IMG/VR virus record: IMGVR_UViG_3300032050_000068
Location: 22,415 to 86,414 of that record
Length of the DNA: 64,000 nt
Origin: a virus
Strand: one strand, 5' to 3'
Under the pieces are notes generated by a model. That model saw nothing but the letters and a program-made list of their open reading frames with translations. It was not told the DNA's origin and did not search any database. Of this stretch, positions 10,201-35,901 are shown piece by piece. Made by a program: the position numbers and the translations under genes. Numbering within the stretch: the first letter of the stretch is position 1; each line of letters opens with the position of its first letter.

Positions 10201-10615
10201 CCAATATAATGACATACTTAAAAATGGTATAAGCATTATAACAGATGCTAAAAATTTGGCAAATGTTAGTATGTATAAAAATTCATTTAAGTCAGCAGAA
10301 CAAATTAGAATTGAAAAAGCAGGATCTAAAGGTGTTACATATACTGATCCTACATTACCTGGTATATCACTTAACTATAAAATAGATCCAGTAGATCCAT
10401 CTAAGATAGTTGTAACTACAAGCTATCAACAATATATGGGTCCTGGTCAAGATTCTAAAACAGTTACTCTTGTTGCCCCATTATCAAATCAAGGTGCTAA
10501 CTTAAGATATAATAGAGAAAGATTCTTTACAGGTGATGCAAGTTCAAGTGATCTTGATGGTCCAAAAATTCAACAATTAATGAATCAGCAAAGAAGAGAG
10601 TATGGAGGATACTAA
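7238..10615 (+). CDS. Conserved crAss-like internal virion protein candidate, 1125 aa
   Basis: The N-terminal third resembles a family I recognise from crAss-like phages (sequence around YDQNWSRLNNIYGQILNAPL, then a K-R-I-D-F-D-L-K-R stretch near residue 70). The middle is long and helical, with coiled-coil character around residues 270-340. Residues about 738-795 form a Gly/Ala/Val-rich hydrophobic stretch that could insert in a membrane. An EF-hand-like loop, DSDGNGIMSEDQ (978-989), has D, D and N ligands at positions 1, 3 and 5 but Gln rather than Glu at 12. The C-terminus is YGGY, echoing the YGG motifs of the two upstream products. A hydrophobic hairpin in a long helical protein would fit an ejected channel-forming protein, but that is inference. 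The 62-base gap upstream is AT-rich and may hold a promoter. Confidence 0.75.
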   Translation: MATYPSGVTTFIPEYQAYQPDFNFTANVLQLKQTQYDQNWSRLNNIYGQILNAPLTHDESINKRDNTFKRIDFDLKRITGLDLSLEQNVQQATQLFRPFYEDASLMKDMAFTKNVGFERSLGEGKRYNTDEKINSEYWDGGLRAIDYKVQEFKALPYEQLPSFGDVKYTPYVNVEKKALELAAEMKIDIKRVTPQGDWIVTEKNGQQAIAPLQSTFYSVLGKDPKVKEMYVTQAYLDRKDTVASNKDRPEYGGNAELAEKDYLNRTLKVMRNQTLITKNDLLSRKMANDKMITRMEKSIADGTDIETTQTSLEQYKEANAQISEMLKQAENDLVMLDGDLNRTMTTQGGSALNMDDMDLLRMRVDAVTASNLLLADLNQAAMNWADLHGEVSYEANPFSVQRQKYEYDSSLIQQRAAAQKDVALFKHQLDMDKATYKAKAESGLYDIDPETNELKIKPELANIERVAEMMTKTPSNDPMALSNTIDGLYTGDAEAAKQTMVSVLAEMQEEGIISNAEILEIIDNKNLNSFNIEPVLRWIKENGDKFKEGTGEINPKTGKRYVTTKDIPTDILNIMIQEGTYVTELEREAAAEMGDDLVAQGDASKLKLAGLAKASLKTDFSPNMITDMTKKMLNVIDRKKDDYYIRNSSKVKNLITLSHSLDDYAAYKLAAIKNKEDIANETANKLRAQGFMYANQLFDDQLNMVDKKTFIANVHRDFPEDIILNNGMSMAGFINAMNTGGLATSTAVAVAGQLGPQVALPEEVVTVPAAYLTGALATGVGYLGGGAWDWIYNSIWGTDEEDGTRLAQGNSHWTGHNYSTSEEYDEMLAAYDLLAENSMLTSDILGLDQPVSLTEFGTGLYTTGGAGITVEPGVRSPTYDHYLQLRGVVRNLDLQTSDGSNYVSFGGVADKFENIDDPAKNNEIWSAIWADFNPRTGSKGMDLKRFQVAVSPFGGEDVTKAAINFKLPEDYLKKFKPDSDGNGIMSEDQYNDILKNGISIITDAKNLANVSMYKNSFKSAEQIRIEKAGSKGVTYTDPTLPGISLNYKIDPVDPSKIVVTTSYQQYMGPGQDSKTVTLVAPLSNQGANLRYNRERFFTGDASSSDLDGPKIQQLMNQQRREYGGY

Positions 10616-17461: not shown

Positions 17462-20400
17462 ATGGCTTGTCAACTCTATACTGAAAATGATATAAGTGCT
17501 TTATATACAATAGTCCGTGGAGAAATACTTGATAGGATGAATGATCCTAAACTAGGTAAATTTGATAATAAAGCATTAGATAAATTCATTAGAGAGATCT
17601 ATGAAGAATTTAAAGATGAACCAAATGGTCTTCTTTATGCACAAGCTGTTCCTGATATATTAGATTTAGTTAAGAATGATCTTGAAATTAAAAAGTATTT
17701 AAGACAAGATGCTGGTTTAAGTTTTGACTATTTACAAGACTTATCATTGGAATTTGAAGATCCTAAAAATGTATTAAAGTTTGTTACTCCAAAAACTACT
17801 ACAAAAACAAAGAAAGACGTTGATAAAAAAATTAAAGAGAGCAATAAGACTTCTAAGAATGTAGTACAAAATAATGATAATAATGCACAACCAAATTGGT
17901 CAGCTGTGCAGGAAAAAGCAAAAGTAGATTATCCAGATAAAACATCTGATAATGTTGCTATTGCAAAAAATCCTGATAAGATGACGGAGGAGGAAAGAAA
18001 TCAAGAAGACCAGGATAAAAAATTATTTTTTGAAGTAGTTAAAACTGCAGTAGTACAAGCTAAGAAAAAGGATATAAATGATAATGTAATGTTAGGGGAC
18101 AAAGCAATCATGCTTAGAGCTCAGAACATTAGAGATTTGAATCCTGATGATTTAACTAACTATGATAAGACTTTCTTAAGTAAGAATAGAACTTATGATA
18201 TTAATATTGCCATCATCTCTGATGCAAAAGGTAATCCAATTAGATTTGATGAGAATAGTAATATTGTAGAAACAGGTGGTAGAATTGTATACCAGTACAT
18301 TAGACCAGTTGTTAATCAAGGTGGCAAATTATATTTAGGAAATAGATCTGGTTTCTTATATACATTAATACCTGCTGAGACATTAGCTGCAAGAGAAATT
18401 AAAGAAGGTATTGCAGAAGGTAACTTGTATGGTGAACAAGAGAGACAAGATATCCTAAATAAAATAAAGAATACACAAAAACAAAAAATGAATGATCTAC
18501 TAAGGCTAAATGATAGACTTAGTACAAGTACTGAACCTGTCTTATTACCTATTACAGGTGGAAGCTTTGGTATTGTAGAACGTAAATCTGAATTAATATC
18601 TAATACAAATTTTGCTGATGATTTGTCTATGATCTATACTTATGACTCTGGTGTAAAAGAGGGTTATAGTTTTTTCATGGTAAACAAATTCAGTGCTGGT
18701 GTTGCTGTTAATAGTCAAATTTATTTGCAAAAAATGGACATGCCAGAATCTCTTGCAGACAACCTAGGTAAAATACTAGCAACTAAAGGATTATTAAATG
18801 GAGAACCATTAAGTCCACAAGCAAAGCTGGAATACTACAATACTTTTTTATCTAATAGAGTTGAGACAAATAATATTAATGTTGAAATAAATGAAGTATT
18901 AGGTGTTAATCAACTTTCTGTAACTATAAAAGATCCATTAACTGGAGAATCAACTGTTGTTGATTTAGAAAAAGATGATGCGGCAAGTATAATTAGCAAT
19001 CATCTTAAAAAAGTAAAAGTTATAACTAAAAATGATGGAACTCAAATTAGTTATCCTGCTAGTATGAGTTACATGAAATCATTTGCAGAGGATGGTGCAA
19101 TACAAAAAGGTGTAAGATTTACTGACTATGAAATCAATCAAAATAAAGATGGCATAGAAATAATAAAAGAAGTACAAAAAGATTATTTTGGTTTTATTAA
19201 GCCTCTTGCTAAAGTAGATTATACAATAGGTGATGTTGGTTATTTTGCTGGAGTCAATGCTTATTTAGAATTTGCTGTCCCTATAGATTTAGAAACTCCA
19301 ATGGATGAACAGATTGATATAGGTATACCAAAAGAAAGTAATTTAACTTCTGATGATGTAGATAATGGTACTCAAGATGAAGTTAAAAAAGAAGAAGTTG
19401 AAGAAGAGGAAGAAGAAGGAGTAAAGTTTACAATAGAAACTAAACAATCTACTCTTCCAAATGATAAAACTCTTGTAGCAAATATAAATGAAGCAGATGT
19501 AGTATTTGGATTAGGAACAAAGTTTACTACTCCTGATGAAAAATTAGTACAACAAAGAGCTGGTGCAGTAAACAAATGGTATGGATTAAAAATTGGTTCT
19601 AAAAGTGAAGCTCCAAAAAATTTAATTCCTCCACAAAATGCTATTGATTTAATGGTAAGTAACCTTTCTAAAATGAAAGGTAATGTTGTAAATATTGTTG
19701 GTAATGATATTGCACAGCTTGCTAAAGATGGTTACACTCAAGCAGAAATAGATAAGTATATTTATAATATCTTAAAAGAGGTTGTAAAGGATTATCCAAT
19801 ATCTAAGATCATTAGTAATGGTCAAACCGGTATTGCTGAAGCTTCAATCAAAGCAGCAAAAAAATTAGGTATACCAGTTAAGATTAGAGCATTTACAGGT
19901 TATGCATTAAGAACTCAAGCTCCATATTTAGCTTCAGGTTCAAAATCAACTAAGAATACTAAAGCAGATTTTCTATCTAGATTTCTTAGCAAGTCAACTA
20001 AAACTTATAAGAAAGCTGCAAATAAAGTTACTCAACCAGTGGATACATCAACTGTTGTCCCTGCTAAACCAACTATACCAGCTAAAACAGTAGAGCAACA
20101 AAAAGTTCAAGATAGAAAAATTAATAAAATTTCTATAGATGATTTACTAAATGGTACTGATTTAATACCTGATCTTCCAGGTATGGATAGAAATAAAAGA
20201 GCTGCTTCTGTTATGAATCAACTCTATGGAAGTGCTAGAGCTTGGGAAGATGTAAATGCATGGTTTGATAAGTCCCCTTTAAAAGGTGTTGTAGATGTTG
20301 AAAGACTGGCTCTTGTATTTAACTCTTCAGCATATGGTACATTTCTTTCTGCAGGATCTCTTTTATCTGATGCAGCAAATAAACTTAGAGAAGAAGGATT

Positions 20401-23400
20401 TGCAGCAAGAATAGAACTATATGGAGATGCCCAACCAATTACTTTATATCACGAAGCATGGCATGCATTCTCTCAGTTGGTTCTAACAATAGAAGAAAAG
20501 ACAGCATTATATAACCATATTAGAACATTTGATAAATGGGCCAATAAAGAATTTATAGAAATTGAAGAAGATTTAGCTGAAGACTTTATTGACTATGCTG
20601 TAAATGGTAAAAAACAATCTGGTATTATTCAGACCATATTTAATAAAATCAAAAAGATTATTGATTTCTTCTTTGGTAAAACAACTAAGAGAGATGTAAC
20701 AAGATTGTATGATATACCAATGGTAAAAGAATATTATAATAATCTTTATACCGGAAACTTTACAGTTGATACTGAAAATGCTGAGCATAACTTAATGCCT
20801 GGTTTTCAAAGATTGAATAGTGCAAAGAAAACAATACAACCAATCACAAGTACTGGCAAAGACTTTACTGAAATTACTGATGTTCAGTCTAATAAGATTG
20901 TGGATCTTATGGATTCATTAATGGCTAGAACCTTCTATAAATATAATACTACATACGGTACAACAAGTGGAGCAGTAAGACTTTTAAGTGATATAACTAA
21001 TAGACAAAAACTTTATAGTAATATAGAAAAACAGTTAAATGTTTTACTTGATAATCAAATAGAAGTTGCACAAAGTATTGCTATTGCAAATGCAGACCCC
21101 ACAAATAAAAATCCTGATTTTGTAGCTGAACAAAAAGAGATGGCAAAGCTTGATCTTTTGATGAAAGCAGTGGAAAATTATGGTGTTGTTGATGAGGCAT
21201 TAAGTAAAAAAACAGATAAAGGTGTAGTTGCATTTCACATGCAAAGATCAAGATTTAATATTTTGAAAGATGCCTATAATGATGATACAGAAGATGCTAC
21301 AGTAGCTTTATTTAAAACAGAAGAAGGTAATTCTATTTCTGCTAAACAGTTAGCAACTGATGATACAATGATGATGCTTTCTGGAATCTACCAACTTAAT
21401 AGAGATGAGAATGGGGATTATTTAATTGAAGAAAATGAAAATGGAGTTAAAACCTACTCTGTAAAAACAGATGACTTTGGTCTTCCAATGCTAGAACCAG
21501 TAGATGTAATGTGGGCTAGATTAGCAAGAACTTTACAGGGCTCTATGGATTTTCTTGATATGTATGATAGAATGAAAAACTCAATTGAAAATTATCCTGA
21601 GTTTATTCAAGTTCTTGAAATATTACCAAACCCATATCAATTTGGACCTTTAGCTTATAATAATAACACAGAGTTTAAATCAGAAACTAATTTCTGGCAA
21701 GATCTTAAGAAGCCGGTTATTCCATTTATTCAATTAAATATAAATAAAACTGTTATAGAGAAAGCTAAACAAATTGATGGTAAAAGAATACCAGAGAAAT
21801 CAATCTATGAAGCTAGACTTGCTGCAGCTAACTTTGATATTTATAGAATCATTAATGATTGGACAACAAACTTTAATGTTGCTGATTCTGTTACCAACAG
21901 ATTTATTGAAAAGGATGGTGGAAACAATTACTTAAATGTTAATGAGGTTATTAAAGAATTTACATTAGACAAAAAGCTTAATCCTAACAAAGCAGGTGAG
22001 TTTCTTGCAGCTCTTGGTATCCAATTAGATATGACAAGTGCTGATATTAGAAATGTTGTTAGAAATAAAGAAAAACCATTTGCTTCTAGATACAATATTG
22101 ATTTTATATATGATAATGTAAGATTAGTATACTTAGCTAGTAAGTCCAATGATATTGGACTAATGGCTGCAGCAGAGGATTTTAAAAGACAGCCTCTATA
22201 TTATTTGATGAATGAAATGCCAAAAGCAATAGTTGATGCTGCTGGAGGAAAAGCAAGAGATGTTAGATCTAAAATTACAACACTTGCACAATTACAAAAT
22301 AGATTTTCAGATGGATACTCAAACTACAGTGTATTAACTCCTGAAAAGAATAGAGTATGGGAACAGTTCTTAGATAATACAGTAACAAGAATTGTAACTT
22401 CAATAAATAAAGCTTCTTCTTGGCAACAGCTTACTATGAAAGAAGCTGATCCAAATGGTAGATTCCAACACATGAGATGGTTGTCTGAAGAGAATAATCC
22501 TTCTTCAGCATTTTCTGTAGTATTAAATTCTATTTTTGATTTAAATCCAATGTCACCAAACTATGGTGAAAAGTTTCCAGGTGCTGAATTGTTATTAGAA
22601 AATATTGGAGGTACTCAAATTATTGATAGAGAGAATAATGAAACTACTGGAACATCAACTGCAAATACAGATGTAACAAGTAAGTTCTTACAGGAAATGC
22701 ATACAATGCTACAATCAGGTGTTGTGGAGTTCATGAGACATGCTTCTAAGCAAACAGCAATGAACTTAAGAGCTAAGAAAGTAAATACTTATTCAAGCAA
22801 AAAACTCACCAATCTTTATGTAGATATCATGGCATTTAGTCCAAGTAATACTACAGCAAATAATAATCTAGGAGAGTCAGAAGCATTTAATGTGTTACTT
22901 GGTTACATTGCAGCAGAAGCTGGTAGGATTTACAGATTCAAATCAAATAAAGAATACTTTGGAAAATTTTCAGCCTATAATAGAAATGTAGTAAGAAAAG
23001 ATAATGGTCAAACTGTAAAAGCCGGTGAAGCATTTACAGCATTTGATGATGTCTTATCTGCTGAAGTACAAGGTGATCTATATGCATTGATAGATAAAAC
23101 TATGGAAGATGCATTAGAGACTGGTTATTTTAATCCTGAAGATTTTAATCTTAAAGATATTGTTAATGAGAATCCTGAATTAAGAAGAAAAATTAAAAAT
23201 GATGTCATTCAATATTTTAATGCTCAAACACAACAAAACTACAGTAGATTAGAAGATGCTAGATATATAGACCAAAGTTTATATGATATGGTATCTTCTG
23301 AAGAACTTAGTAAAGATCAAGTAGATAAAATGCTAGTTAAAGCATACACCTATAACTATTGGATACATAACTTTGAAACAACCATTTTGGCATATGGAGA

Positions 23401-26400
23401 TACAGTACAGTATAACCATGACAAAGAAGAGTTCCATAAGAGAAATGCTGGTTTAGGTTCTGGTGGTAGAGGATTCCGTGCAGATTATAGAGCAAGGATG
23501 TATATCAACAGCCCTATGTATGAAAGACTTTATGCTGAAAAATATAATTATGAATTTAGACCATATGATGGTACACTTAACACAGCTATTATAAAAGAAG
23601 AAGAGATAGGGGAATCTAAATATAAGTCAGAATACTATGATGCTCACGTTAAAGATTATACACAAAGGTATTTAAAAGCTGGTAAATCTAAAGCTGAAGC
23701 AGAAAGACTTGCAAAAGAACTTGCAACAATAGTTCTTAAAGACTACAGTGATATGAAAATTGCTGATGGTCAAGGTTGGATAGGATTTGAAGCATATAAG
23801 ATGTTAAAAAATCTAGAAGGTAACTGGACTACTCAACAGGAAAACTTATATAAAAGAATTGTAAATAATGAAACAATTACAGCTTCTGAAATTAGAGAAT
23901 ACTTTCCACCATATAAATTACAGTACTATGGTAACATTAAAGTTTCTGGATTACCATTAACATCTTTTCATAAATTTTCATTAGCTCCATTGATTCCTAC
24001 AGTGCATACTGCCAATACTAGATTGGGTCAGATTCATGACATGATGATGAAACAAGGTATTGATTATGTATTAATGGAATCTGGTGAAAAGGTAGGACAT
24101 TTTGGTTCAGGTGATAACATTGTGGACAAAAATGGAAATATAGATACCTCAGTTACATTAACCAAGAATGTAATTTTTGCAGAATACCTTAAAAATCAAA
24201 CTGAAGTAAACTCAAAGTATAAACAAAAATCAATATTCTCAACTCAGTTAAGAAAGTTAGTATTAGAAGGAATGTATGAAAATGGTCAAATAACCATAAA
24301 AAAACATACTAAGCTAATTGAAAACTATGTAAACAGGGTATCTGAGTATACTGAGTTACTTAAAAATGAATTAGTTGATGAACTAGGGTTTGAAGAAACT
24401 GAAAGTGGAGAATTTATTCCAGTAAATAAAGACAGTATTGCAAAGCTTGCAAAAATGATTCGGGATACTCTTACAAGAGATGATGTATATAGTGACAATC
24501 TAATAGACATCATTGATGTAACTGATGAGGGAGATTTAAGATTTGACTTATCTCTACACCCAGAGGCTGTGAAGATTGAAAAACTTTTATTGTCATTGAT
24601 CAATAAAAGAATAATTAAACAAAAAGTTAAGGGAGAACCATTAGTACAGAAATCATCTGCTTTCTATGATGGTTTATTTGAGTTGCCAATTGATTTAGAT
24701 AAGATGAGTCCTGCTGCACGGGAAACTGCAGTTAAAAAATATATGGGCTCTAACTTTTTACCTACATATCATAGAGGAGCTGATGGTAAAACTACAGCAA
24801 TGAAAGTTGCCATATCTCTTCAAGGTGATTATGAGAGTTTATTAAATCTAGAATACAAAGGTGAACCAATAGGAACTATTGATAGACTTAATGAAGCTAT
24901 CAAAGATGATGAATGGTTAGATGCAAATGATAAAAATAACAGAAAAGCAATAACTATGGTTGGAGTTAGGATTCCAGTACAGGGTTTGAACTCTATGGAA
25001 TTTATGGAAGTATATCACTTCCTTCCAGCAGAAGCTGGTAATATTATCATTCCTCCAGCAGAAATAGTTGCTAAATCAGGAGCTGACTTTGATATTGATA
25101 AGTTATCTATATTCATGAATAACATTGATTCTGATGGCAATGTTAAACAGACAATGTTTGAAAATGCAGAGGAATTCTATAATGCACTCAAAGATCCAGC
25201 AAAATATGATATGACTAAGCAGCAGATGTATGCTATGCAAAAGGCTGGTCTTGAGAATGCACTGATCAATGACATAAGAAGTATTCTTGAATTACCAGAA
25301 AATTTTGTATCTCTTACAACTCCTAACGGAACTTATCTTGTTAAACCTATAGCAGATAGATTAGCACAATCAGTAATGGATTATAGTCCATTACAAAATA
25401 TGATGACTAAAGATAAAGATGGAAACCTTGTACCAAATCTTTCAGCTCCAGATAAAAGTGGTAAGCAAAAAGAAGTTATTAGTCCAACAAGAATCTTTGA
25501 AGTAGGTTATAACTTATACAAACATGAATCAAATGTTGTTGGTAAGAAGACATTAGGACTTGGTGCTATTGAAAATACATTCAATGTTATATTTAATTCA
25601 TTAGGAGCAACAATGCCTCCTGTGTATAAACACAGTGATGAAGAAATGAATAGAATATCATTCTTAGGTTTAAGACATCACACAACAAAAAAGAATGGAC
25701 AAGATGTTATATCATTGTCTAATCAGTATGATGTTGATGGTGTAAATAAAATAGCTGATGTTATATCCCAATTAATAAACGGTTGGGTGGATGTTGAAAA
25801 AGATGCTTGGATATTCTTTGTGCAGGGTAACTATGAAGTTGCACCTATACTACTTTACTTACTTAAGACAGGAGTACCAGTAGAAGAAGCAGTTTACTTT
25901 GTATCACAACCACTTGTTAGGGACTATGTAAAAGAAAAGAGACTTGCACAAAGTACATTTGCAGAACCATTAAGAAGAGACCCAGGATATTTAGGAGTAT
26001 CTTTCAAAGCAGCCAGCAATGTTATATCTAAAAACTTTAAGAACTTTCTTGCAGATGACCAAGTAAGATATACTGTTGGTAAGAATATGATGGATGAATA
26101 TTTTAAAAACAGAAGTGAAGATAACAAACATTTCACTAAAGAAGAAATGCTTAATCTAATCACAGAAAGTAAAAATAATCCTGAAAAAGCTAGTAGTGAC
26201 TTATCAAGAACAATGTTCTTGCATTATCTTACTATAGAAAAACAAATTGAAGGAATCACAGCATTAAAGATGGCTTCTAATCCTGATACAGCTCTTAACA
26301 CTGATGTAGGACAAGCTATTCAAGCTGAATCTAATATTGAGGCTTTAGCACTAAATACTAAAATAGATCAAGATCTAAGGTTAGGAATGATTAATGATTC

Positions 26401-28279
26401 AATTATTAGTTCTTTCTTTAATTCAAAACTTGTTAAAGGTTTAGCAAAACCATTATTCAAGTTTAGATATGATGAAGACATACAAGATTATATACAATCT
26501 TATGTTTCTGATTTTAAAAATGCAGAAATTTTAAAAGCTGCATTTGGATATAACTATCGTGATATATTCCCAGTTGTATTTAGAAATGATATTTTAAGTT
26601 ATTTGTTCCAAAATACACTAAGAAAATATAGTCTTGGAAAAGAATATAGCTCTTATGCCCTAAGTGACAATATTAAAATTACACCTGCTGCAGGACTTAA
26701 GTTTGGTGCACGGGTTGTAGATACAGCTGGTGGGCCAACTATGGTGGTTGATAGAGTTCAAATTGAAAAAGAATTCTTTGACAAGTCTTATCTAAGAGGA
26801 AGTGAAGCTAAAAATAGTTATGAGGATAGAGGATTATATGCTCTTGAGCCAGGTCATTTTGGAAGTAATGTAGCTTCTAACAAAGAAGAATATATCAGAT
26901 TTGTTGTAGAAAGAGAGTATCTAAGACATGTTATGCCTTTTGATGAAGTTGTAAAAACACAAGAGTTTAAAAAAGAACTTGAAAATGTAAAAAAGACTAG
27001 TGTAAGAGGTGTGGAAACAGAAAATAGAAGATACACTTATGAAAAAATTATAGCAAGTAGAGCTTTAGATAACACATTGAATCCATATCATTTATTTAAT
27101 GATAAAGAAAATGCATATGCTGTTAGATTAGAAAGGCTTAAGACTCAATACAGAACTGAGCTTTTTGATAATTATCCTGTACTATCTAGAATAGTAATAG
27201 ATACTAATCAATCTAAGACAATGTTTAATCTTTATATAGATGATAAAGACATGACATCATTTAAGTCTAATTTATATTCAAGAAATTTTGAAGAGCTTTC
27301 AAATAGGGCTGTAAAAAAGGTTGAAGATAAAGATGAGAATGATAGAATTAGTGACTTCTTTGCAAAGATTACATACATTGCAATGCTGCAATCAGGTACT
27401 AATAAAAGTAAATACAACTTCCTAAGCTTAACTGACTTTGATAAGTTTATTGATGTAATGAATGATGAGACTGCTAAGTTCTTAGAATCTCCTGTAAAAC
27501 TTAAAATGCTTGTTGATTTTAAAAATAAGTTTGAACAAGTTAACAGTAAAACAAATAGAGACAAGTATAGATTTAAAAATTATTTGACAGGACTAGATGT
27601 TCAGAAATCTATAGATACACAGTATGTACTTTCAAAAATTCCAGATTCAGAAACAATAACAGCTGAAGACATAGAAAATGCAGAAAGGCTGGTAGAAAGA
27701 AAAAATCTTATACCAACTATTAGTGCTAATGTATTTGTATACAATGATCTTTCTGGAAGTGAAAAAGCATACCAGTATATAGTTGATAATAATCAAGACA
27801 TTACATTTATCTATCAATTAAGCTTAGCACAAAAAGAAGCATATGAAAAAATGACACCTGAAGAGTTTAATAAAAGAAAGCTTAAAGGGCAAGTGCTACT
27901 TAAAAAAATAGCTAATAGTTCTTCTGTAGGTATAGTAACTGGTTTAGATAAGGTATCCGATGCTTTCTCTACTCTAGATAAAAAGTACTATGATAATAGG
28001 ATAGCTGATATAGAACTTGCTATTGCAGAAATCAATCAAGTAATAGAAAAAGGAGGTAAAGTTGCATTTTCTATTAATGGATATGGAGATCCTGCTTTGA
28101 TGCCAAAAGAATTATTTGTATATTTAAGTAGAAGACTTTTTGAAGAATTCCAATATCTTAACCCAGGATCGGAGTTTGCAAAAGAAGTAAGTTCAGAGGT
28201 AGCCAAATATCAACCTGTAACAGATGCAGAAATATTAGCTAAATTTGAAGGAGAGAATAACCCATTAAATTGTATGTAA
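17462..28279 (+). CDS. Virion DNA-dependent RNA polymerase (phi14:2 gp66-like) with SLOG and zincin domains, 3605 aa
   Basis: Residues about 2495-2555 carry the catalytic signature: RIPVQG (R2503, P2505, Q2507) followed about 35 residues later by ADFDIDKLSIF (D2542, D2544, D2546). This corresponds to the RxPxxHR...NADFDGDQM arrangement of multisubunit RNAP beta-prime, and to the DFDID loop of the single-chain RNAP packaged in phi14:2 virions. That enzyme is related to eukaryotic RNA-interference polymerases and transcribes early genes after injection. Two further domains lie upstream. One is a Rossmann-like YspA/SLOG-type domain at about 680-830, with NGQTG at 786-790. The other is a HExxH zincin (H997, E998, H1001), with E1035/E1036 as possible third ligand. 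An acidic linker rich in E lies near residue 650. The start is 3 bases after the previous stop. RNAP assignment is strong; the roles of the extra domains are unknown. Confidence 0.9.
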   Translation: MACQLYTENDISALYTIVRGEILDRMNDPKLGKFDNKALDKFIREIYEEFKDEPNGLLYAQAVPDILDLVKNDLEIKKYLRQDAGLSFDYLQDLSLEFEDPKNVLKFVTPKTTTKTKKDVDKKIKESNKTSKNVVQNNDNNAQPNWSAVQEKAKVDYPDKTSDNVAIAKNPDKMTEEERNQEDQDKKLFFEVVKTAVVQAKKKDINDNVMLGDKAIMLRAQNIRDLNPDDLTNYDKTFLSKNRTYDINIAIISDAKGNPIRFDENSNIVETGGRIVYQYIRPVVNQGGKLYLGNRSGFLYTLIPAETLAAREIKEGIAEGNLYGEQERQDILNKIKNTQKQKMNDLLRLNDRLSTSTEPVLLPITGGSFGIVERKSELISNTNFADDLSMIYTYDSGVKEGYSFFMVNKFSAGVAVNSQIYLQKMDMPESLADNLGKILATKGLLNGEPLSPQAKLEYYNTFLSNRVETNNINVEINEVLGVNQLSVTIKDPLTGESTVVDLEKDDAASIISNHLKKVKVITKNDGTQISYPASMSYMKSFAEDGAIQKGVRFTDYEINQNKDGIEIIKEVQKDYFGFIKPLAKVDYTIGDVGYFAGVNAYLEFAVPIDLETPMDEQIDIGIPKESNLTSDDVDNGTQDEVKKEEVEEEEEEGVKFTIETKQSTLPNDKTLVANINEADVVFGLGTKFTTPDEKLVQQRAGAVNKWYGLKIGSKSEAPKNLIPPQNAIDLMVSNLSKMKGNVVNIVGNDIAQLAKDGYTQAEIDKYIYNILKEVVKDYPISKIISNGQTGIAEASIKAAKKLGIPVKIRAFTGYALRTQAPYLASGSKSTKNTKADFLSRFLSKSTKTYKKAANKVTQPVDTSTVVPAKPTIPAKTVEQQKVQDRKINKISIDDLLNGTDLIPDLPGMDRNKRAASVMNQLYGSARAWEDVNAWFDKSPLKGVVDVERLALVFNSSAYGTFLSAGSLLSDAANKLREEGFAARIELYGDAQPITLYHEAWHAFSQLVLTIEEKTALYNHIRTFDKWANKEFIEIEEDLAEDFIDYAVNGKKQSGIIQTIFNKIKKIIDFFFGKTTKRDVTRLYDIPMVKEYYNNLYTGNFTVDTENAEHNLMPGFQRLNSAKKTIQPITSTGKDFTEITDVQSNKIVDLMDSLMARTFYKYNTTYGTTSGAVRLLSDITNRQKLYSNIEKQLNVLLDNQIEVAQSIAIANADPTNKNPDFVAEQKEMAKLDLLMKAVENYGVVDEALSKKTDKGVVAFHMQRSRFNILKDAYNDDTEDATVALFKTEEGNSISAKQLATDDTMMMLSGIYQLNRDENGDYLIEENENGVKTYSVKTDDFGLPMLEPVDVMWARLARTLQGSMDFLDMYDRMKNSIENYPEFIQVLEILPNPYQFGPLAYNNNTEFKSETNFWQDLKKPVIPFIQLNINKTVIEKAKQIDGKRIPEKSIYEARLAAANFDIYRIINDWTTNFNVADSVTNRFIEKDGGNNYLNVNEVIKEFTLDKKLNPNKAGEFLAALGIQLDMTSADIRNVVRNKEKPFASRYNIDFIYDNVRLVYLASKSNDIGLMAAAEDFKRQPLYYLMNEMPKAIVDAAGGKARDVRSKITTLAQLQNRFSDGYSNYSVLTPEKNRVWEQFLDNTVTRIVTSINKASSWQQLTMKEADPNGRFQHMRWLSEENNPSSAFSVVLNSIFDLNPMSPNYGEKFPGAELLLENIGGTQIIDRENNETTGTSTANTDVTSKFLQEMHTMLQSGVVEFMRHASKQTAMNLRAKKVNTYSSKKLTNLYVDIMAFSPSNTTANNNLGESEAFNVLLGYIAAEAGRIYRFKSNKEYFGKFSAYNRNVVRKDNGQTVKAGEAFTAFDDVLSAEVQGDLYALIDKTMEDALETGYFNPEDFNLKDIVNENPELRRKIKNDVIQYFNAQTQQNYSRLEDARYIDQSLYDMVSSEELSKDQVDKMLVKAYTYNYWIHNFETTILAYGDTVQYNHDKEEFHKRNAGLGSGGRGFRADYRARMYINSPMYERLYAEKYNYEFRPYDGTLNTAIIKEEEIGESKYKSEYYDAHVKDYTQRYLKAGKSKAEAERLAKELATIVLKDYSDMKIADGQGWIGFEAYKMLKNLEGNWTTQQENLYKRIVNNETITASEIREYFPPYKLQYYGNIKVSGLPLTSFHKFSLAPLIPTVHTANTRLGQIHDMMMKQGIDYVLMESGEKVGHFGSGDNIVDKNGNIDTSVTLTKNVIFAEYLKNQTEVNSKYKQKSIFSTQLRKLVLEGMYENGQITIKKHTKLIENYVNRVSEYTELLKNELVDELGFEETESGEFIPVNKDSIAKLAKMIRDTLTRDDVYSDNLIDIIDVTDEGDLRFDLSLHPEAVKIEKLLLSLINKRIIKQKVKGEPLVQKSSAFYDGLFELPIDLDKMSPAARETAVKKYMGSNFLPTYHRGADGKTTAMKVAISLQGDYESLLNLEYKGEPIGTIDRLNEAIKDDEWLDANDKNNRKAITMVGVRIPVQGLNSMEFMEVYHFLPAEAGNIIIPPAEIVAKSGADFDIDKLSIFMNNIDSDGNVKQTMFENAEEFYNALKDPAKYDMTKQQMYAMQKAGLENALINDIRSILELPENFVSLTTPNGTYLVKPIADRLAQSVMDYSPLQNMMTKDKDGNLVPNLSAPDKSGKQKEVISPTRIFEVGYNLYKHESNVVGKKTLGLGAIENTFNVIFNSLGATMPPVYKHSDEEMNRISFLGLRHHTTKKNGQDVISLSNQYDVDGVNKIADVISQLINGWVDVEKDAWIFFVQGNYEVAPILLYLLKTGVPVEEAVYFVSQPLVRDYVKEKRLAQSTFAEPLRRDPGYLGVSFKAASNVISKNFKNFLADDQVRYTVGKNMMDEYFKNRSEDNKHFTKEEMLNLITESKNNPEKASSDLSRTMFLHYLTIEKQIEGITALKMASNPDTALNTDVGQAIQAESNIEALALNTKIDQDLRLGMINDSIISSFFNSKLVKGLAKPLFKFRYDEDIQDYIQSYVSDFKNAEILKAAFGYNYRDIFPVVFRNDILSYLFQNTLRKYSLGKEYSSYALSDNIKITPAAGLKFGARVVDTAGGPTMVVDRVQIEKEFFDKSYLRGSEAKNSYEDRGLYALEPGHFGSNVASNKEEYIRFVVEREYLRHVMPFDEVVKTQEFKKELENVKKTSVRGVETENRRYTYEKIIASRALDNTLNPYHLFNDKENAYAVRLERLKTQYRTELFDNYPVLSRIVIDTNQSKTMFNLYIDDKDMTSFKSNLYSRNFEELSNRAVKKVEDKDENDRISDFFAKITYIAMLQSGTNKSKYNFLSLTDFDKFIDVMNDETAKFLESPVKLKMLVDFKNKFEQVNSKTNRDKYRFKNYLTGLDVQKSIDTQYVLSKIPDSETITAEDIENAERLVERKNLIPTISANVFVYNDLSGSEKAYQYIVDNNQDITFIYQLSLAQKEAYEKMTPEEFNKRKLKGQVLLKKIANSSSVGIVTGLDKVSDAFSTLDKKYYDNRIADIELAIAEINQVIEKGGKVAFSINGYGDPALMPKELFVYLSRRLFEEFQYLNPGSEFAKEVSSEVAKYQPVTDAEILAKFEGENNPLNCM

Positions 28280-31200
28280 TGTTTTGTGAATCTAGGTCAA
28301 CAGTTTTAGAAGATTTAAAAAAGAGAGGTATACTTGGTGAATTCAATGATATATTGGATCCAATTGAATTTAATAAATTTAATGAAGAATTTACCAGATT
28401 TATACAGCTCAAGTATCCAAATCTAAAACTTGAAGAAAATGATTCTTTCTTCAATGAACCATATGAGGTTCAAACAAGATATCCATATTCATCTAGATTC
28501 TATAGGGATGACATAAATGTTACACTTTATGCTCAACCAAATGATGAGTTATTCCAAATACTTGATGATGTTAGAATCCAACAAGAAATAAAAGAAGAGA
28601 CTAAAGACTTTGATATTCTAAAAGAACCTGTATCAAACTTTGAGGATGATGAAAGTTTAAACCCTATGTTTATGAGGGATAACTTTAATAATTCATCTTT
28701 AAATAGGGAGTTTAGTAATAGACTAAGAACTAGTCTTATTTCTTTCATGGAAGGATTAAACATTAAAATTGATCAGGATCTTGATGAAATAATAAGTTCA
28801 GATAGAAGAACTTGGATTGATGAGAATGGTGTAAGAAGAACAAAAGAGGATCCTTTAGCTGCATTTGATATACTTCAAAAGTATATGGCACTTAAAAGAA
28901 ATGTATCAGACAAGACATTAGCTATGCAGTCTGCAAATGTTATATTTCAATTTCTTGGTAAAAAATCTAAACTTGGTTTAGAGCTTTGGAAAGGTATAAA
29001 TAGCTGGAGCAGATATGATGAATTGTACAATAAATACAATACAAGAAGGCTTGAAGTAGAAGATGAACAAACTGCGGAAGAAGTTACACCATATGGTGAG
29101 AGAGATATGGCTGCAGAAACAGTTAGAGAAATCTACAAATATGACCCAGCTAGATTTAACCCATATGCACACAGGCAAGTAATTATTGAGTTTATTGCCG
29201 GTATGTTAGTTGTTGGTGTTGAAAATGGATATGATGGTAGTAAAAGAAAAAATCCTGATATAAGCAAAGAATACTTTGAAAGTTTAGGCTACAAAGATAA
29301 ATATGCTGAAAATTGGATTATTAGAATGTTCAATAAACTATGGAACTGGTGGCAAGCAAATATTAAGGACAATAAAGCTATAACTATATACAAGGAAGCT
29401 GAACTAAGAGACACTGTCTTAGATATTGTTGATGATGTTTATAAAAAGAACTATGAGAAGTTTATTAGAAGTTACTATGAGGATTCAAATGGTAAGTTCT
29501 TTTCAAGCAAGGGAGAAGAGTTTGAGCAAAAGTATTATAATCAAAGTTTAAATAGAGACCCATTTGCTAAAGGGATTGTAGAAAAATTATTTAATTCTCC
29601 ATTTGAATACTTTCTTAGTGGCTCATTAGTATTAAGAAAGTATGGTAGAGTTGTAAGAGCTATATCTGAAGATCTGCATGATATTGATGGTGTTATTAGT
29701 CTTGAGCAATTTAACAGTGAGAAAAATGCAGCTCAGTTCCTTAAATGGATTGAAGAAAGAGGCTTACCATTAAGTAAAGCTAGGAGCAGAAAAAATTCTG
29801 AAACTTTTAAAAAAGAAGTTTTACCATATCTTGAAGCACAATCTTGGTATAAAAATTTAAAAGAACAATTTCCTAGTTGGAATTTTGATACTGCCTTTAT
29901 TGGTAAAGATCATAAGAAGGGAGAGTCAATTACAATTACGGGTTATGTTGAACATCCTACTGAAACAGAAACTGTACAAGATGGATTAGCAAGTTATGGG
30001 GGAAAAATTGTTCCCAATATGGTTACTAGACCTAAGAGATATGTACTTGATTTCTTTTTAAGAACCCAAGAAGGAAATTATCCAGAAATATTTGATCAGT
30101 ACTATAAAGACTGGAAACAAATCTTTGAAGCAAAAATAAACATGGGTAGAGGTAAAGACTTAACAGATCTTATATACTTCCAACCTTTCTTTGAAGACAA
30201 ATATAAATTTACTAATAGAGGTTTTAGATATTTTACTTTTGCAGATGATCATTTTACAAATATGCCTGACAAAAGTGATTTAACAGTTGATGAAGGAAAA
30301 ATAAATAATGAGAGAGCAAAAGAAGCTGCAGATGCATTAGGACAAAAAATTGCTGAATCATTAGGTGTTCAGTATATGTATGTAACTGAGCAAGAAGCTA
30401 GACAAATTCTTGAATCAAGAAAGAAAAAATATAATGGAGAACCAGCATTCTTTTTTGGAGGAGCTGTATACATAGTAGGAGACAATGTAAATTTTGATAC
30501 AGTACTCCATGAATTATCCCACCCACTATTGAGAGCAATCTATAGAGAAAACAAAACTCTATTTACCAATCTCTATAATAGTTTGATGGCAACTACTGAA
30601 GGTCAGATAATAAGAGATCATGTTATAAAAAACTATCCAGAATTACCTGAGTATACTATAGATGCAAATGGGGAAAGGCAACTTAATCCCCTCTTTATGG
30701 AGGAAACTTTAGCATATGCTTTACAAAGAAAAGCAGCTAATCAGGTAACTAATCAAATTGAATCAGAAGGATTTGAGTCATTTATAGGTAAATTATTAAG
30801 TGTATTAAAAGACTTACTTAAAAAGATTTTTGGCTCTAAAGTAAAGGTAGCTGACATTAATGTAAATACAAAGATAGATAAGTTAGCAGAAATGTTATTG
30901 ACAGATACTTTTGAGTATAATGTTGAAGCCATAAAAAATGAAGACATAGTAGCTTTTGCTAGGGAAATTAAAGACATGGCTAACAGACTTGTAAAAGATG
31001 TTAAGGCTGATAAAATTCAAGAATCTATAAATGACTTGTTTGCTACTAATCAATTAATTTATGAAAAGGCAATAAACTTTAAAACTAGATCACCTTTGTA
31101 TCAGAAAATGCTTAAAGAAGCATTATTTGTAAAAGGTACTAAAGAACTATTGCCAAGAATAAAAAGAAGTTTAGCTGGCTTTCAAACAATAACTAACTAT

Positions 31201-34200
31201 GAAGACCTATCTGTTGATGAGATAATCAAAAATACAGTTGAAGCTGAAAGAGCAAGAACTCAAGATCTTACTAACAGAGCTAGAAGTTTTATTAATAGTG
31301 TTGCTGTAGTCAATAATATTTCTCAGAATATATTTAGTGATCTAAATAGAATGCAGAAAACAAAAGAGTTTAACTCTAGGGATGCTGTAGCTCTTCTCTT
31401 TTTATATAGAAGCTCAATTAGATCATGGAATGATATGTTTAACACATTTGATGAATTCTTAATTGAGCAAGATGATTTTGATGTTACTCAACCAAATGAA
31501 CTAACAGATCTCATTAATGAGACAAAGAATAATTTACTCAGAGCAGACAAAAAAATTAGAGATATCTATCAAGAAAACAGTGTCAACTTTTATGTAGAAG
31601 TCACTGGGTATATGAATGATTTCCTAATGCAAGAACTTGGAAATAATTTAAAAAATGCATTAACTAATAAACTATCTGTTTCGGAGATTGAAGAATTATA
31701 CAATGGTGTTATCAAACAATCATTTACAGATCAAGATTTAGATGAGTTGTATGCAAAGTATGAAAAGAAAGGAATTGAATCTAAATACATTAAGAAATTT
31801 ATTGATGACTATAAAGAGTTTTTGCTAAATCAAGATACAATTACTGATGGTCTGTCAGGTAAATTAAAAGATGTAAGTTGGTTTAACAGATTCTTTGAGA
31901 GCTATACTTCTAGTAATGACCCTATAGTAGGTGGATTAGCTATTTTTATTAATGATCAGATAACTGAAGCTAATAACAGGGCCCTGGAAAAGTCATATCA
32001 ATTTAGAAAAAAGCTTCAACCACTTTTAGAAAAAATAGGTTATAGTACTTTAAAAACAAGGCAATTAGTAGACTTATTAATGTTTAAGGATAAAATACTT
32101 TATGTAGATCCTAAAACAAAAAAGCCAGTTGAAAAAGAAATATTAACTTTTTTGAATGAGTTTGGAAATGGTTGGAGATATGTTCAGGATTTACTTGAAT
32201 ATAAAATTGATGAGGCATGGTCATCTGAAGATCAAGAAAAAATTAGAACTGCTGTTGATGAATATAGAGCTTTTAAAAGAGACTATATGCATGATGAGTA
32301 CATTCAAGAAGTCTATCAAAAAGATAGTGTGTTTGATAAGTATGGTGATATAGGAAAGATGGCATGGCTTGCAAGAAAAATGGCTCTTGATGCATATAAC
32401 AATGAATCAAATGAGTTAACAGATGAGCTAGAAAGATTTCAAAAATATTCTACACTTCAGTCACTTTGGCAAGATTACAAAAATTTGTATTCATTAAAGT
32501 ATGCTGATGGTAGTGATAAAGTAGATGATCCAATCAATGGTATTTATGACTTAACTATTACTAGAATACTTCTTGAACATAGAGAAAGTACCGGTGACTA
32601 TTATGAGTTTATCCCAAGAGCTGGCTCTTTACAAACTGCATTTAATGAATTTTTAAGTTTAAAGGATCAAGAAGGAGCTACTCCTGAAGAAATAGAAGAA
32701 GCTAAAAAAGAATGGGTAAAGCAAAATTTAAGAGTTGCTTATACTGAAGACTTTTATAATTCTAGAAAAGACTTGATTACTAAACTTAAAGCTTTACAAT
32801 CAAAAGTTAATACTGTAATAGAAGAAGATTTTGATATCAGCAATGCCTATAGTGAAATCTATAACTTAATGTATGCTTATAAAGATGAGCAGGGTCAACC
32901 TATTCCAGAAGAGTTAGGTGTAGATAAGTTAAAAACAATTAAAGAGCTTAATCAAAAAATTATTGATTACAAAGCTAAATTTGATACTAAAACTGGACTT
33001 TCTAGAGATGAGTCTGAAGAACTTGATTTATATATTGCTATAAGTAAAAAAGATCCAGCAAAACTAACACCAGAACAAAAGTTAAGATATAGAACATTGT
33101 TGGAAAAACAAGCTAAGACTGGTTTATCTGTAGGTGAAGTGGCTCTTATGCAAAGTATTTATGCTGACTTATCTTCATTAACTCAAAAGATACCTACTGA
33201 ATATTATGTTGATGCATTAAATGAGCATTTGCAGAGATTAAATGTTGCACCAATTAATGTTGAAGATGCAACTAATTTCATCAACAGTGATGAAATGAAA
33301 GCCCTATTAGAAAAAGATGGGAAACTAGTAGATTGGTTTAGAGTTAATCACGTTTCTAGAAAGGTTAAAAATAGAAAGACTAGAAAAATTGAAGTCAAGT
33401 ATGAAAGAACTATGGCCAATTCTTTGTCTGTTCCAAAGAATCCAGAGTACTATGAAAAAACTGTATTGCTTAATGAGCTAACAGGAGAAGAAGAAACCTT
33501 TAATGGTTTACCTAATGCTAGACACTCTATTTATAGAATAAAAGATAAATATAGAACAGGTTACAATCCTCAGACAGGTGAAGTAGAATTACAAGTTGGT
33601 GTACACATTGACAATAAAGGTCAATATCTTCCAAGATTATTTACTAATGTAAATGATCCTAATTCTGCTAAAGATGATAGATACATTAACAAGGATTACA
33701 TGAGGCTTAAGGATCAACCAAATAGTGTAAGATTCCAACTCCTTGAGGTAATGAAAGAAGCTCATCTTTCATTTCAAGAAGATAAGTCTAATAAGTCTAA
33801 GTTATATCTAGATATGCCACGCTATGTATTAAGAGATAACCTATCTAGATTACAAGCTGGTAAATTAGGTGAAAGATATTCTCAGATTAAAAAAGGTATT
33901 GGTCAGTCAATAAGAGATGCTTGGGGTAAGTCTGTAGATGAAGTTGAATTAGAACACAACTATGAAAGAGATAATAATCTTCAAGAGTATAGACTTGTAA
34001 ATACTGATTTAAATTCTGAAGAAGTTTCATATATTCCGGTAACTGGATTATATAATCTAGATATAGATAATACTGATCCAGATGTTGTTAGAGGAATGTT
34101 TAAGTATTTACTATCTCTTGAACAACAGTCACAATTATTACAAACTCTTCCTCTTGTTAATTCTATACTAGATACATTAGAGGATCCAGCTAATGCACCA

Positions 34201-35901
34201 AAGACTCCTAACACTTATAGTAAAACTATAAATAGGATAAAAGGTAAACTTACTCATACTGTAAAACCGGGTGCTACTAATAATAGAGCCGGCCAAGTAA
34301 GATCTCTTATTGAAAGAGAATACTATGGTAAACAATATAGCGGTGAGGGAAGCTCTGTCTACTTAGATAAATTTATTGGCAAACTACAAAAGCTATCATC
34401 AAGAGCTTCACTAGCAGTAAACTTACCTTCAGATTTAAAAAACAGATATGGTCAGATAGTACAAAATATTATTGAATCAGCTGGTGGTGGATTTATTACT
34501 GTAAAAGATTTAGGAAAAGGTAAACTATGGGCTACTCCAGCTATGTTAGAGTGGGTAGCTAAGAGTGTATATACAAAAGGTGTTCCTGCATTATCATCTC
34601 AGATAATTGAAATGTTTGATGCAGCCTTTAAATTTGAAGATGACTTTGGAAGATCTGTCTCTAGAAACATGTCAAAGGATCTTATGAATGGAGAGTGGAT
34701 GTACAACATTAGAAAAAATGCTGAAATGGAAGCAGCTTTACAACTTTTTGGTGCATTTTTAAATGCTGAAAAAGTAGAGCAAAGACTTTCTAATGGTAAG
34801 ACTATCACTATTAACTATAAAGATGCATGGCAACTTAATAAAGATACTGGTATAGCTGAATTAAAACCAGGTGTTGATCCAGCATGGTATAATAGAACAG
34901 TATATCATGAGTATGTTAAAGGTCAAACACTTGAAGAAATTGCTCAAATGTATGGTGTTACTGTTGAAGAACTTCAGCAAAGAAATAAAGTTGTTAGTGC
35001 TATAGAATTTGAAGAAGGTAAAGAAATTATAATTGCTAAATCTGAGAAATTTAAACAGTTTAGAAATAAATTTCAGGGTGTATCTCACAGATTGTATGGT
35101 TCATATGATAAGTTTGCTCAAGCTGAAGGTAATATGTATTTACCATATAGAATGTTTACATTCATGAGAAAGTGGTTTATACCAATGCTTACAAACAGAT
35201 GGGGAGCTGCAGTAGAAATAGAAGATGGTAAGTTCTGGAAACCAAAAATGAAAAAAAGATATGATTGGATGACCGGTAAAACTACTATGGGCTTTTATGT
35301 AAATGCATATCTTGGAATGAAAGAACTTATTAAAAGTAAAGGTAAGTATTGGGCTTATATGCCACTTGATCAAAAAAGAGATTTGATGAGAACTCTTTCT
35401 GAAGGATTATTTATAATAACTGCCGCTCTTCTTGCATCAATGCTTTGGGGTTATGATCCAGATGATAAGAAAAGATTTGATAAACTTAGAGCAAGATCAG
35501 GAGCTTTATTTACTGATGACTTTAAAACATGGGGATTTATTCAAAATCATATGCTTTTATTATTATTAGGTGTACAAGCTGAAACTTCAGCATTTGTTCC
35601 ACTACCAACAATTGCTGGTGTAAACCTTGGAGCAGATGATTATATTAAAATGGTTACTACAACTACATCTGCATTTGGAAATACCATTAGTTTATATGCT
35701 AAAATATTTGAAGATGTATTCCAACTAATTACATTTAATGATAAAGCATACTATAGTAGAAAAGAGGGTGAATACTTCTGGCAACAAGAGGGGTCACCAA
35801 AAGTTATAGGTCACTTACTTAAGAGTGTTGGTATTAATGGTAACACAGGTCAAGTAGATAAGGCATTAGAAGGATTTGAAAGTGCAGGTAAATTAAAATA
35901 A
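28279..35901 (+). CDS. Giant virion protein with AbiEii-like nucleotidyltransferase, zincin and LysM domains, 2540 aa
   Basis: I chose the ATG at 28279, whose A is the last base of the RNAP stop (TAATG), over a TTG nine bases upstream. Residues about 440-640 show a nucleotidyltransferase fold. G448-S449 opens the motif, HDID (D468, D470) supplies the paired aspartates and LDFF (D591) the third. GRGKDLTDLIYF (623-634) matches the C-terminal helix typical of AbiEii-type enzymes. A second zincin follows with HELSH (H744, E745, H748) and E808/E809 about 60 residues on. A LysM-like domain lies at about 2207-2254 (TLEEIAQMYGVTVEELQQRN), and a hydrophobic segment at 2377-2392. LysM domains bind peptidoglycan, which suits a protein crossing the envelope. 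It is the last giant gene before the small basic protein. Targets of the enzyme domains are unknown. Confidence 0.85.
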   Translation: MFCESRSTVLEDLKKRGILGEFNDILDPIEFNKFNEEFTRFIQLKYPNLKLEENDSFFNEPYEVQTRYPYSSRFYRDDINVTLYAQPNDELFQILDDVRIQQEIKEETKDFDILKEPVSNFEDDESLNPMFMRDNFNNSSLNREFSNRLRTSLISFMEGLNIKIDQDLDEIISSDRRTWIDENGVRRTKEDPLAAFDILQKYMALKRNVSDKTLAMQSANVIFQFLGKKSKLGLELWKGINSWSRYDELYNKYNTRRLEVEDEQTAEEVTPYGERDMAAETVREIYKYDPARFNPYAHRQVIIEFIAGMLVVGVENGYDGSKRKNPDISKEYFESLGYKDKYAENWIIRMFNKLWNWWQANIKDNKAITIYKEAELRDTVLDIVDDVYKKNYEKFIRSYYEDSNGKFFSSKGEEFEQKYYNQSLNRDPFAKGIVEKLFNSPFEYFLSGSLVLRKYGRVVRAISEDLHDIDGVISLEQFNSEKNAAQFLKWIEERGLPLSKARSRKNSETFKKEVLPYLEAQSWYKNLKEQFPSWNFDTAFIGKDHKKGESITITGYVEHPTETETVQDGLASYGGKIVPNMVTRPKRYVLDFFLRTQEGNYPEIFDQYYKDWKQIFEAKINMGRGKDLTDLIYFQPFFEDKYKFTNRGFRYFTFADDHFTNMPDKSDLTVDEGKINNERAKEAADALGQKIAESLGVQYMYVTEQEARQILESRKKKYNGEPAFFFGGAVYIVGDNVNFDTVLHELSHPLLRAIYRENKTLFTNLYNSLMATTEGQIIRDHVIKNYPELPEYTIDANGERQLNPLFMEETLAYALQRKAANQVTNQIESEGFESFIGKLLSVLKDLLKKIFGSKVKVADINVNTKIDKLAEMLLTDTFEYNVEAIKNEDIVAFAREIKDMANRLVKDVKADKIQESINDLFATNQLIYEKAINFKTRSPLYQKMLKEALFVKGTKELLPRIKRSLAGFQTITNYEDLSVDEIIKNTVEAERARTQDLTNRARSFINSVAVVNNISQNIFSDLNRMQKTKEFNSRDAVALLFLYRSSIRSWNDMFNTFDEFLIEQDDFDVTQPNELTDLINETKNNLLRADKKIRDIYQENSVNFYVEVTGYMNDFLMQELGNNLKNALTNKLSVSEIEELYNGVIKQSFTDQDLDELYAKYEKKGIESKYIKKFIDDYKEFLLNQDTITDGLSGKLKDVSWFNRFFESYTSSNDPIVGGLAIFINDQITEANNRALEKSYQFRKKLQPLLEKIGYSTLKTRQLVDLLMFKDKILYVDPKTKKPVEKEILTFLNEFGNGWRYVQDLLEYKIDEAWSSEDQEKIRTAVDEYRAFKRDYMHDEYIQEVYQKDSVFDKYGDIGKMAWLARKMALDAYNNESNELTDELERFQKYSTLQSLWQDYKNLYSLKYADGSDKVDDPINGIYDLTITRILLEHRESTGDYYEFIPRAGSLQTAFNEFLSLKDQEGATPEEIEEAKKEWVKQNLRVAYTEDFYNSRKDLITKLKALQSKVNTVIEEDFDISNAYSEIYNLMYAYKDEQGQPIPEELGVDKLKTIKELNQKIIDYKAKFDTKTGLSRDESEELDLYIAISKKDPAKLTPEQKLRYRTLLEKQAKTGLSVGEVALMQSIYADLSSLTQKIPTEYYVDALNEHLQRLNVAPINVEDATNFINSDEMKALLEKDGKLVDWFRVNHVSRKVKNRKTRKIEVKYERTMANSLSVPKNPEYYEKTVLLNELTGEEETFNGLPNARHSIYRIKDKYRTGYNPQTGEVELQVGVHIDNKGQYLPRLFTNVNDPNSAKDDRYINKDYMRLKDQPNSVRFQLLEVMKEAHLSFQEDKSNKSKLYLDMPRYVLRDNLSRLQAGKLGERYSQIKKGIGQSIRDAWGKSVDEVELEHNYERDNNLQEYRLVNTDLNSEEVSYIPVTGLYNLDIDNTDPDVVRGMFKYLLSLEQQSQLLQTLPLVNSILDTLEDPANAPKTPNTYSKTINRIKGKLTHTVKPGATNNRAGQVRSLIEREYYGKQYSGEGSSVYLDKFIGKLQKLSSRASLAVNLPSDLKNRYGQIVQNIIESAGGGFITVKDLGKGKLWATPAMLEWVAKSVYTKGVPALSSQIIEMFDAAFKFEDDFGRSVSRNMSKDLMNGEWMYNIRKNAEMEAALQLFGAFLNAEKVEQRLSNGKTITINYKDAWQLNKDTGIAELKPGVDPAWYNRTVYHEYVKGQTLEEIAQMYGVTVEELQQRNKVVSAIEFEEGKEIIIAKSEKFKQFRNKFQGVSHRLYGSYDKFAQAEGNMYLPYRMFTFMRKWFIPMLTNRWGAAVEIEDGKFWKPKMKKRYDWMTGKTTMGFYVNAYLGMKELIKSKGKYWAYMPLDQKRDLMRTLSEGLFIITAALLASMLWGYDPDDKKRFDKLRARSGALFTDDFKTWGFIQNHMLLLLLGVQAETSAFVPLPTIAGVNLGADDYIKMVTTTTSAFGNTISLYAKIFEDVFQLITFNDKAYYSRKEGEYFWQQEGSPKVIGHLLKSVGINGNTGQVDKALEGFESAGKLK

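Follow-up and report, generated by a model that had tools for sequence, protein, structure and literature searches.

The closest described relative of the protein reported here is gp65 of phage phi14:2 (Steigviridae), a 1421-amino acid (aa) protein encoded after the virion RNA polymerase (RNAP); its GenBank record names it "RNA polymerase associated protein" and marks it as detected in virions by tandem mass spectrometry (MS/MS). PhicrAss001 likewise has three giant proteins, gp47, gp50, and gp49, of which gp49, in the position equivalent to that studied here, was detected in virions; this cargo differs from the set described below in that no nucleotidyltransferase (NTase) is reported (PMC10172136). 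Polyvalent proteins, more broadly, are injected polypeptides that combine several enzyme domains, and their zincin domains are thought to cleave them (PMC5512222). Within that survey, pol-beta NTases occurred in polyvalent proteins of conjugative elements only, and in none of the phage type (Iyer et al. 2017, PMC5512222). Here, we describe P0001, a 2540-aa protein encoded at 28279..35901 (+) of a 64,000-nucleotide stretch of virus DNA (IMG/VR record IMGVR_UViG_3300032050_000068, positions 22,415 to 86,414 of 86,414 bases; hereafter, the window). Like gp65, P0001 follows a virion RNAP, has a homologous N-terminal tail and C-terminal region, and contains an HExxH motif (in gp65 this is HEIMH, near residue 245) and a single cysteine, Cys3. 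Unlike gp65, it contains a module with the predicted fold of a pol-beta NTase. Our favored explanation, which we consider reasonably likely when taken as a whole, is that P0001 is the last of several giants ejected into the cell, where its NTase would act on a host acceptor.

Active site and predicted fold of the NTase module

The module (aa 145-655) lies between the N-terminal tail and a zincin-type domain and, judging from structure prediction, almost certainly has the NTase fold. It comprises a conserved helical part, seen in alignments and in the model (aa 145-424, 28711..29550), and the NTase core (aa 425-655, 29551..30243); these features, like all others of the window's giant proteins, are on the + strand. 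The core is delimited by its predicted fold and by an alignment of 52 relatives with 21-82% identity to the window, for which the family was widened stepwise in IMG/VR. Rows of this alignment, and the loci counted further below, include close relatives and are therefore partly non-independent.

Fourteen residues are invariant in all 52 sequences (G448, S449, G456, R460, H467, D468, D470, D591, F593, K619, R624, K626, D627, and D630), following the order GS...R...HDhD...D...K...R-x-KDxxD along the core. Because nearly all of them are polar or glycine and stand in this GS...KDxxD order, we regard the set as a catalytic rather than a structural signature. Motif I is G448-S449 (29620..29625) and motif II is D468-I-D470 (29680..29688), with the two aspartates as predicted metal ligands. 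Together, they supply the hG[G/S] and DhD elements of a pol-beta NTase, at a spacing of x18; in pol-beta NTases, this spacing is usually 9-13. The third carboxylate of such enzymes, which is carried by a strand, is provided by D591 (30049..30051) in YVLDFFLR, a strand in both of our models. The last invariant group is K619-x4-R624-x-K626-D627-x2-D630 (30133..30168). The preliminary description of this DNA had singled out G448-S449, D468-I-D470, D591, and the segment GRGKDLTDLIYF, and each was found at the position it gave.

The core is under purifying selection, with a ratio of nonsynonymous to synonymous substitution rates (dN/dS) of ~0.13-0.18, a rough value because dS is near saturation. 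We predict that the NTase is very probably catalytically competent. Many injected proteins are chiefly structural, and the fold could in principle be idle, serving as a structural or packing element; but it is exactly the catalytic residues that never vary, whereas the remainder drifts to 21% identity, and we consider an idle domain very unlikely.

A profile search had been set in advance as a check that could refute the assignment, and at the sequence level its outcome was negative: P0001, single relatives, and profiles gave no NTase match in Pfam, PHROGs, or PDB sequences, and the family falls outside all Pfam models. Weak Pfam matches to PRP3, Pup, or SoxZ were inconsistent and below cut-offs, and these identities were dropped. 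Searches of 50,697 phage records by tblastn found no match to the module (from the window and from the relatives L081, L073, and L203) or to the whole of P0001, and in the collections searched the module occurs in no isolated phage. Two scans of genome contigs also found no relative, and hence no host or prophage link.

We consider the missing sequence-profile match to be outweighed, because structure comparison does collect NTases. An initial model, made for the 516-aa module of the window itself from 16 sequences, was mediocre, with a predicted local distance difference test score (pLDDT) of 71 and a predicted template modeling score (pTM) of 0.60; it assigns D468 and D470 to a common strand and D591 to a different one. 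A second AlphaFold model, made for L205, a compact relative, from an alignment of 49 sequences, was good, with a pLDDT of 82.8 and a pTM of 0.79. Its elements run helix, GS, helix, DxD strand, helices, three strands, and two helices, which is the minimal NTase order, and the last of the three strands carries D174, equivalent to D591. In a Foldseek comparison of the L205 model with 350,542 PDB chains, ranks 1-25 were all pol-beta-type NTases, comprising CCA-adding enzymes (archaeal and plant) and bacterial relatives, SpoT, TUT7, GLD-2, MEAT1, OAS3, and AsfvPolX; the top match was the CCA-adding enzyme 4x4u (E = 0.029, probability 0.84). The structure-prediction check proposed in the preliminary description thus supports the NTase fold, which we accept because matches to an incorrect fold should not all come from one superfamily, as ranks 1-25 do. 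The predicted fold is shared with 4x4u and 1r89 (archaeal CCA-adding enzymes), TUT7, GLD-2, MEAT1, the SpoT synthetase, and OAS3, although sequence identity to these enzymes does not exceed 17% across the aligned segment and no RNA-binding domains are recognizable.

Several results weigh against this assignment. Besides the silent profile searches, the first model matched nothing usable in either PDB or BFVD, and no PDB chain matched the L205 model at E ≤ 0.001. The better model is that of a relative 27% identical to the window core, not of the window itself, and the three aspartates are placed by strand assignment. The lack of a profile match and of any Foldseek E under 0.001 would also suit a coincidental motif match in a region that is no NTase. 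However, the full motif set is invariant and the top 25 of the 350,542 chains form one superfamily; we regard coincidence as extremely improbable and already close to refuted.

Relation to AbiEii toxins

The module had been described in advance as AbiEii-like. This holds for the types of motif that it contains, but not for their spacing, for membership in the database family, or for its nearest structures. Dy et al. (2014) define AbiEii/DUF1814 proteins by hG[G/S]-x15-DhD with a motif II arginine, a motif III K...R (KLxAaxxR, that is, K-x6-R), and a family-specific motif IV, +DxxD (PMC3985639). All four types are found in the crassvirus family: R460 (29656..29658) is the candidate equivalent of the motif II arginine, K619-x4-R624 resembles motif III, and motif IV has an exact counterpart in K626-D627-L-T-D630. 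The distances differ, with GS-x18-DhD in place of x15, R460 at -8 of D468 in place of -4, and a K-R gap shorter than published, whereas 34 AbiEii relatives that we compared have the x15 spacing and Arg at -4. Relative to AbiEii/MenT (PF08843), P0001 therefore has a longer gap between motifs I and II, a shorter gap within motif III, and an extra invariant Asp in a strand, and its NTase sits in a virion cargo protein.

Aligned by hhalign with these 34 relatives, the family scored 24.0, against 14.6 ± 2.5 (maximum 22.2) in 120 column shuffles. This match is weak yet in register (GS on GG and DID on DID), and the comparators had been retrieved with a DNA pattern for motif II, a selection that favors a motif II match. 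A search of the phage record with PF08843 gave no match, and Pfam scans of family members listed no NTase family. MenT/AbiEii structures are absent from the 50 listed fold neighbors of the L205 model, among which are CCA-adding enzymes, terminal uridylyltransferases (TUTases), and SpoT. No antitoxin gene was seen among the neighboring open reading frames (ORFs), namely that of the RNAP giant and those of the replication block, although no dedicated AbiEi search was made; a toxin-antitoxin locus was dropped as a candidate because no such gene was seen.

The invariant hG[G/S], R + DhD, K...R, and +DxxD types and the in-register profile match are what a true AbiEii/MenT toxin, shutting down translation in the host through nucleotide addition at tRNA acceptor stems, would display. 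The silence of PF08843, the deviating spacing, the missing antitoxin partner, and the structural neighbors, in a comparison whose sequence comparators were selected by motif II, all speak against such a toxin, and a full block of translation would harm the phage too. We thus find it distinctly unlikely. An AbiEii-like mode of working is plausible from the motifs, while membership in AbiEii is not supported by PF08843 or by spacing.

Carrier protein and gene context

P0001 had also been described as a giant protein beside the virion RNAP, and the neighboring genes confirm this. Its ORF, open throughout without an internal stop, begins at the end of a 3605-aa ORF (17462..28279) that resembles the phi14:2 virion RNAP gp66 and other crassvirus RNAP giants at ~25% identity (tblastn). 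Upstream of this RNAP lies a 2285-aa giant (10602..17459) with the position of phi14:2 g067 in the gene order, and the tail proteins CrAss_Ring_1 and CrAss_Ring_2 are encoded in the left part of the record. Because of the gp66-type RNAP and the CrAss_Ring_1/2 matches, we assign the record to a divergent crAss-like phage, with P0001 in its transcription/cargo block. The early region of the window contains one tRNA-Arg gene (TCT, 62038-62112).

A hidden Markov model (HMM) of the P0001 family matches phi14:2 g065 at the N-terminus (independent E value 3e-4) and at the C-terminus (4.9e-8, six-protein set), and profiles of P0001 and its relatives match the gp65 N-terminus and residues 741-1316. The N-terminal tail of P0001 (aa 1-144, 28279..28710) is the part related to the start of gp65. 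By this homology and its place after the RNAP, P0001 is a predicted member of the RNAP-associated cargo of Crassvirales (gp65 type). The search for the NTase domain in other Crassvirales, suggested in advance, was successful in IMG/VR, where the 52 aligned relatives were found, but the module HMM finds no NTase in the giants of phi14:2 or cr108_1. In phi14:2 gp65, the tail leads directly into the HEIMH motif. Since gp65 lacks the module, an insertion or a loss of this module separates the two lineages. It also follows that the NTase is not essential to proteins of the gp65 type, which counts against the favored explanation.

Behind the module is a zincin-like metallopeptidase domain (about aa 690-860, 30346..30858), recognized by its HELSH motif (aa 744-748, 30508-30522), its conservation, and the conserved E809, with no Pfam match; an HExxH domain follows the NTase module in most fused forms of the family. 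Further along, a LysM repeat (aa 2214-2240, 34918..34998; Pfam PF01476, E = 1.1e-4) is aligned in the nearest relatives only. Its absence from more distant relatives suggests a recent insertion, and it could bind peptidoglycan. With its NTase, HELSH domain, and LysM repeat encoded beside RNAP and structural genes, P0001 has the unrelated enzyme domains, the zincin, and the location near late genes of a phage polyvalent protein, but differs from the phage-type proteins surveyed in having a pol-beta NTase. A 1714-aa protein of cr108_1 (L259, 20514-25658) aligns over one stretch with the zincin domain as well as with the helical part of the NTase module. The helical part (28711-29550) may be a decayed zincin copy.

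Several lineages encode the NTase separately, in a gene of ~526-734 aa that lies directly after the RNAP gene and before the next giant and is split off just ahead of the HExxH peptidase domain. Elsewhere (L022/L058 and L026/L063), the module is retained while other proteins take up the last two-thirds of the carrier. Because it occurs as a stand-alone gene and is kept while carriers change, the module appears to act as an independent enzyme cassette. The carriers exchanged behind the NTase (L058, 8644-15672; L063, 8542-15033; L206, 921-7898) are of three kinds: one has an ATPase-like GGAGTGKT segment and an HExxH late in the sequence, one is an unrelated protein, and one, in L206, has an exonuclease domain (PHROG 298, E = 1e-13). 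At L060 (1-17424), a 5808-aa open frame, cut at the start of the locus, joins the upstream giant in the RNAP position, the NTase, and the carrier.

The NTase invariably comes straight after the RNAP gene and, in L060, is fused with it. It might serve the phage's own transcription beside the injected RNAP, for instance by tailing early phage RNAs, by repairing them, or by altering the RNAP itself, without a host target. The annotation of gp65 fits such a role, as do the RNA 3'-end NTases (CCA-adding enzymes and TUTases) among the nearest folds. However, phi14:2, crAss001, and other crassviruses transcribe without an NTase, none being found by the module HMM in the phi14:2 and cr108_1 giants or by tblastn in the 50,697 phage records, and the gene order may mirror ejection order alone. 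We consider a purely transcriptional role unlikely.

The cargo domains next to the NTase differ between relatives, as the exonuclease in L206 illustrates, and this is what conflict with the host would predict. Anti-defense enzymes have been proposed in polyvalent injected proteins (PMC5512222), and the NTase might be another, mending nuclease-cut tRNA 3' ends at entry or modifying a defense protein or signal nucleotide; that its best structural neighbors are CCA-adding enzymes is consistent with such a function. Nevertheless, no tRNA-binding body domain is recognized, and the NTase core is widely conserved within the clade rather than patchy, so that an anti-defense role seems to us quite unlikely.

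Terminal cysteines and proposed entry into the host

Cys3 (codon at 28285..28287) is the only cysteine of P0001. The RNAP giant has just two, Cys3 (17468-17470) and Cys3604 (28271-28273), and the 2285-aa giant has one, Cys2282 (17445-17447). The same terminal pattern is seen in phi14:2 (g067, 1797 of 1797; g066, 3 and 2179; g065, 3) and in PhicrAss001 (gp47, 2339 of 2341; gp50, 5, 1334, and 2404 of 2412; gp49, 5), which keeps it although gp47 is on the opposite strand.

Across NTase-bearing loci, the RNAP has a C-end Cys in 42 of 45 cases and the NTase ORF an N-end Cys in 45 of 47, the exceptions being L063 (with MPC at a later ATG) and the fragmentary L221. All 15 stand-alone NTases have a C-end Cys, and the giant that follows has an N-end Cys in 15/15; the last giant never has a C-end Cys (0/46). 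Inner cysteines of the giants at these loci number 30 in 201,183 residues. By comparison, ORFs of the window's replication block contain 1.19% cysteine, and only 1/31 has Cys in residues 2-6. The fused giants cr50_1 gp59 and cr52_1 gp34 are without the coupling cysteine at the N-end and retain the C-end Cys. Exceptions are crAss002 gp33, whose first Cys is at 35, and the cr108_1 RNAP ORF, where a Cys instead lies shortly before the end of the 798-aa ORF that comes next.

Ejected proteins generally seem cysteine-depleted: N4 vRNAP (3500 aa), N4 gp51 and gp52, and T7 gp15 and gp16 have zero cysteine, and T7 gp14 has one at residue 2 (L267 and L268). We rejected depletion alone as the cause of the crassvirus termini, since the N4 and T7 ejection proteins are depleted but lack paired terminal cysteines. 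Trans-splicing or a split intein was dropped as well, as there is no intein sequence and only 0-10 residues follow the C-terminal Cys.

A cysteine pair is thus present wherever the chain misses a peptide bond, and the simplest reading is disulfide coupling for ordered ejection. We tentatively propose, at somewhat less than even confidence, that crassvirus giants are coupled head to tail through terminal-Cys disulfides, forming a single covalently joined "protein train" (2285 + 3605 + 2540 aa in this phage), which would be threaded through the tail in order and undone in the reducing host cytoplasm. P0001 would be the last car, with a new NTase effector family that elsewhere forms its own car with a Cys at each end. 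In the PhicrAss001 structure paper, disulfides are described in gp57 and tail proteins, and the passages on disulfides are silent on cargo (PMC10172136). As far as the literature searched shows, the terminal-cysteine rule is undescribed.

This chain of terminal cysteines would connect P0001 to the RNAP, and we count it in favor of the favored explanation. The case is computational throughout: it shows the predicted fold, the invariant active site, the location beside the RNAP, the homology to a virion protein, and the splitting and joining of genes, and from these we infer entry of P0001, catalysis, and release by the zincin. Under that explanation, the virion would eject three coupled giants with the DNA, the 2285-aa protein, the RNAP, and then P0001, which would refold in the host cytoplasm. 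By homology with its relatives, P0001 is likely to be injected, and this reliance on homology for its entry counts against the explanation. In the refolded NTase, D468 and D470 would bind metal, D591 would be the third carboxylate, and K619, R624, and K626-D627-x-x-D630 would form a basic/acidic nucleotide-binding tail. Whether the NTase unit acts separately or is released after entry we judge an even matter; the adjacent zincin domain may release it, a proposal we make because many relatives encode the NTase as its own gene ending at this boundary. The enzyme would transfer a nucleoside monophosphate from a nucleoside triphosphate to an acceptor that is present before phage gene expression, to the benefit of the phage. 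We lean somewhat toward an acceptor from the host rather than phage RNA; our best guess is the 3' end of one of the host's RNAs, or one of its proteins.

The NTase family is unnamed in databases, and its active-site residues are sharply defined for testing. Terminal-Cys coupling, if true, would offer a simple covalent explanation for the ordered ejection of several giants through one tail, and is testable in existing PhicrAss001 or phi14:2 virions. Crassviruses, the most abundant group of human gut viruses, thus gain a candidate for an injected enzyme, one whose action on the host could precede all phage gene expression.

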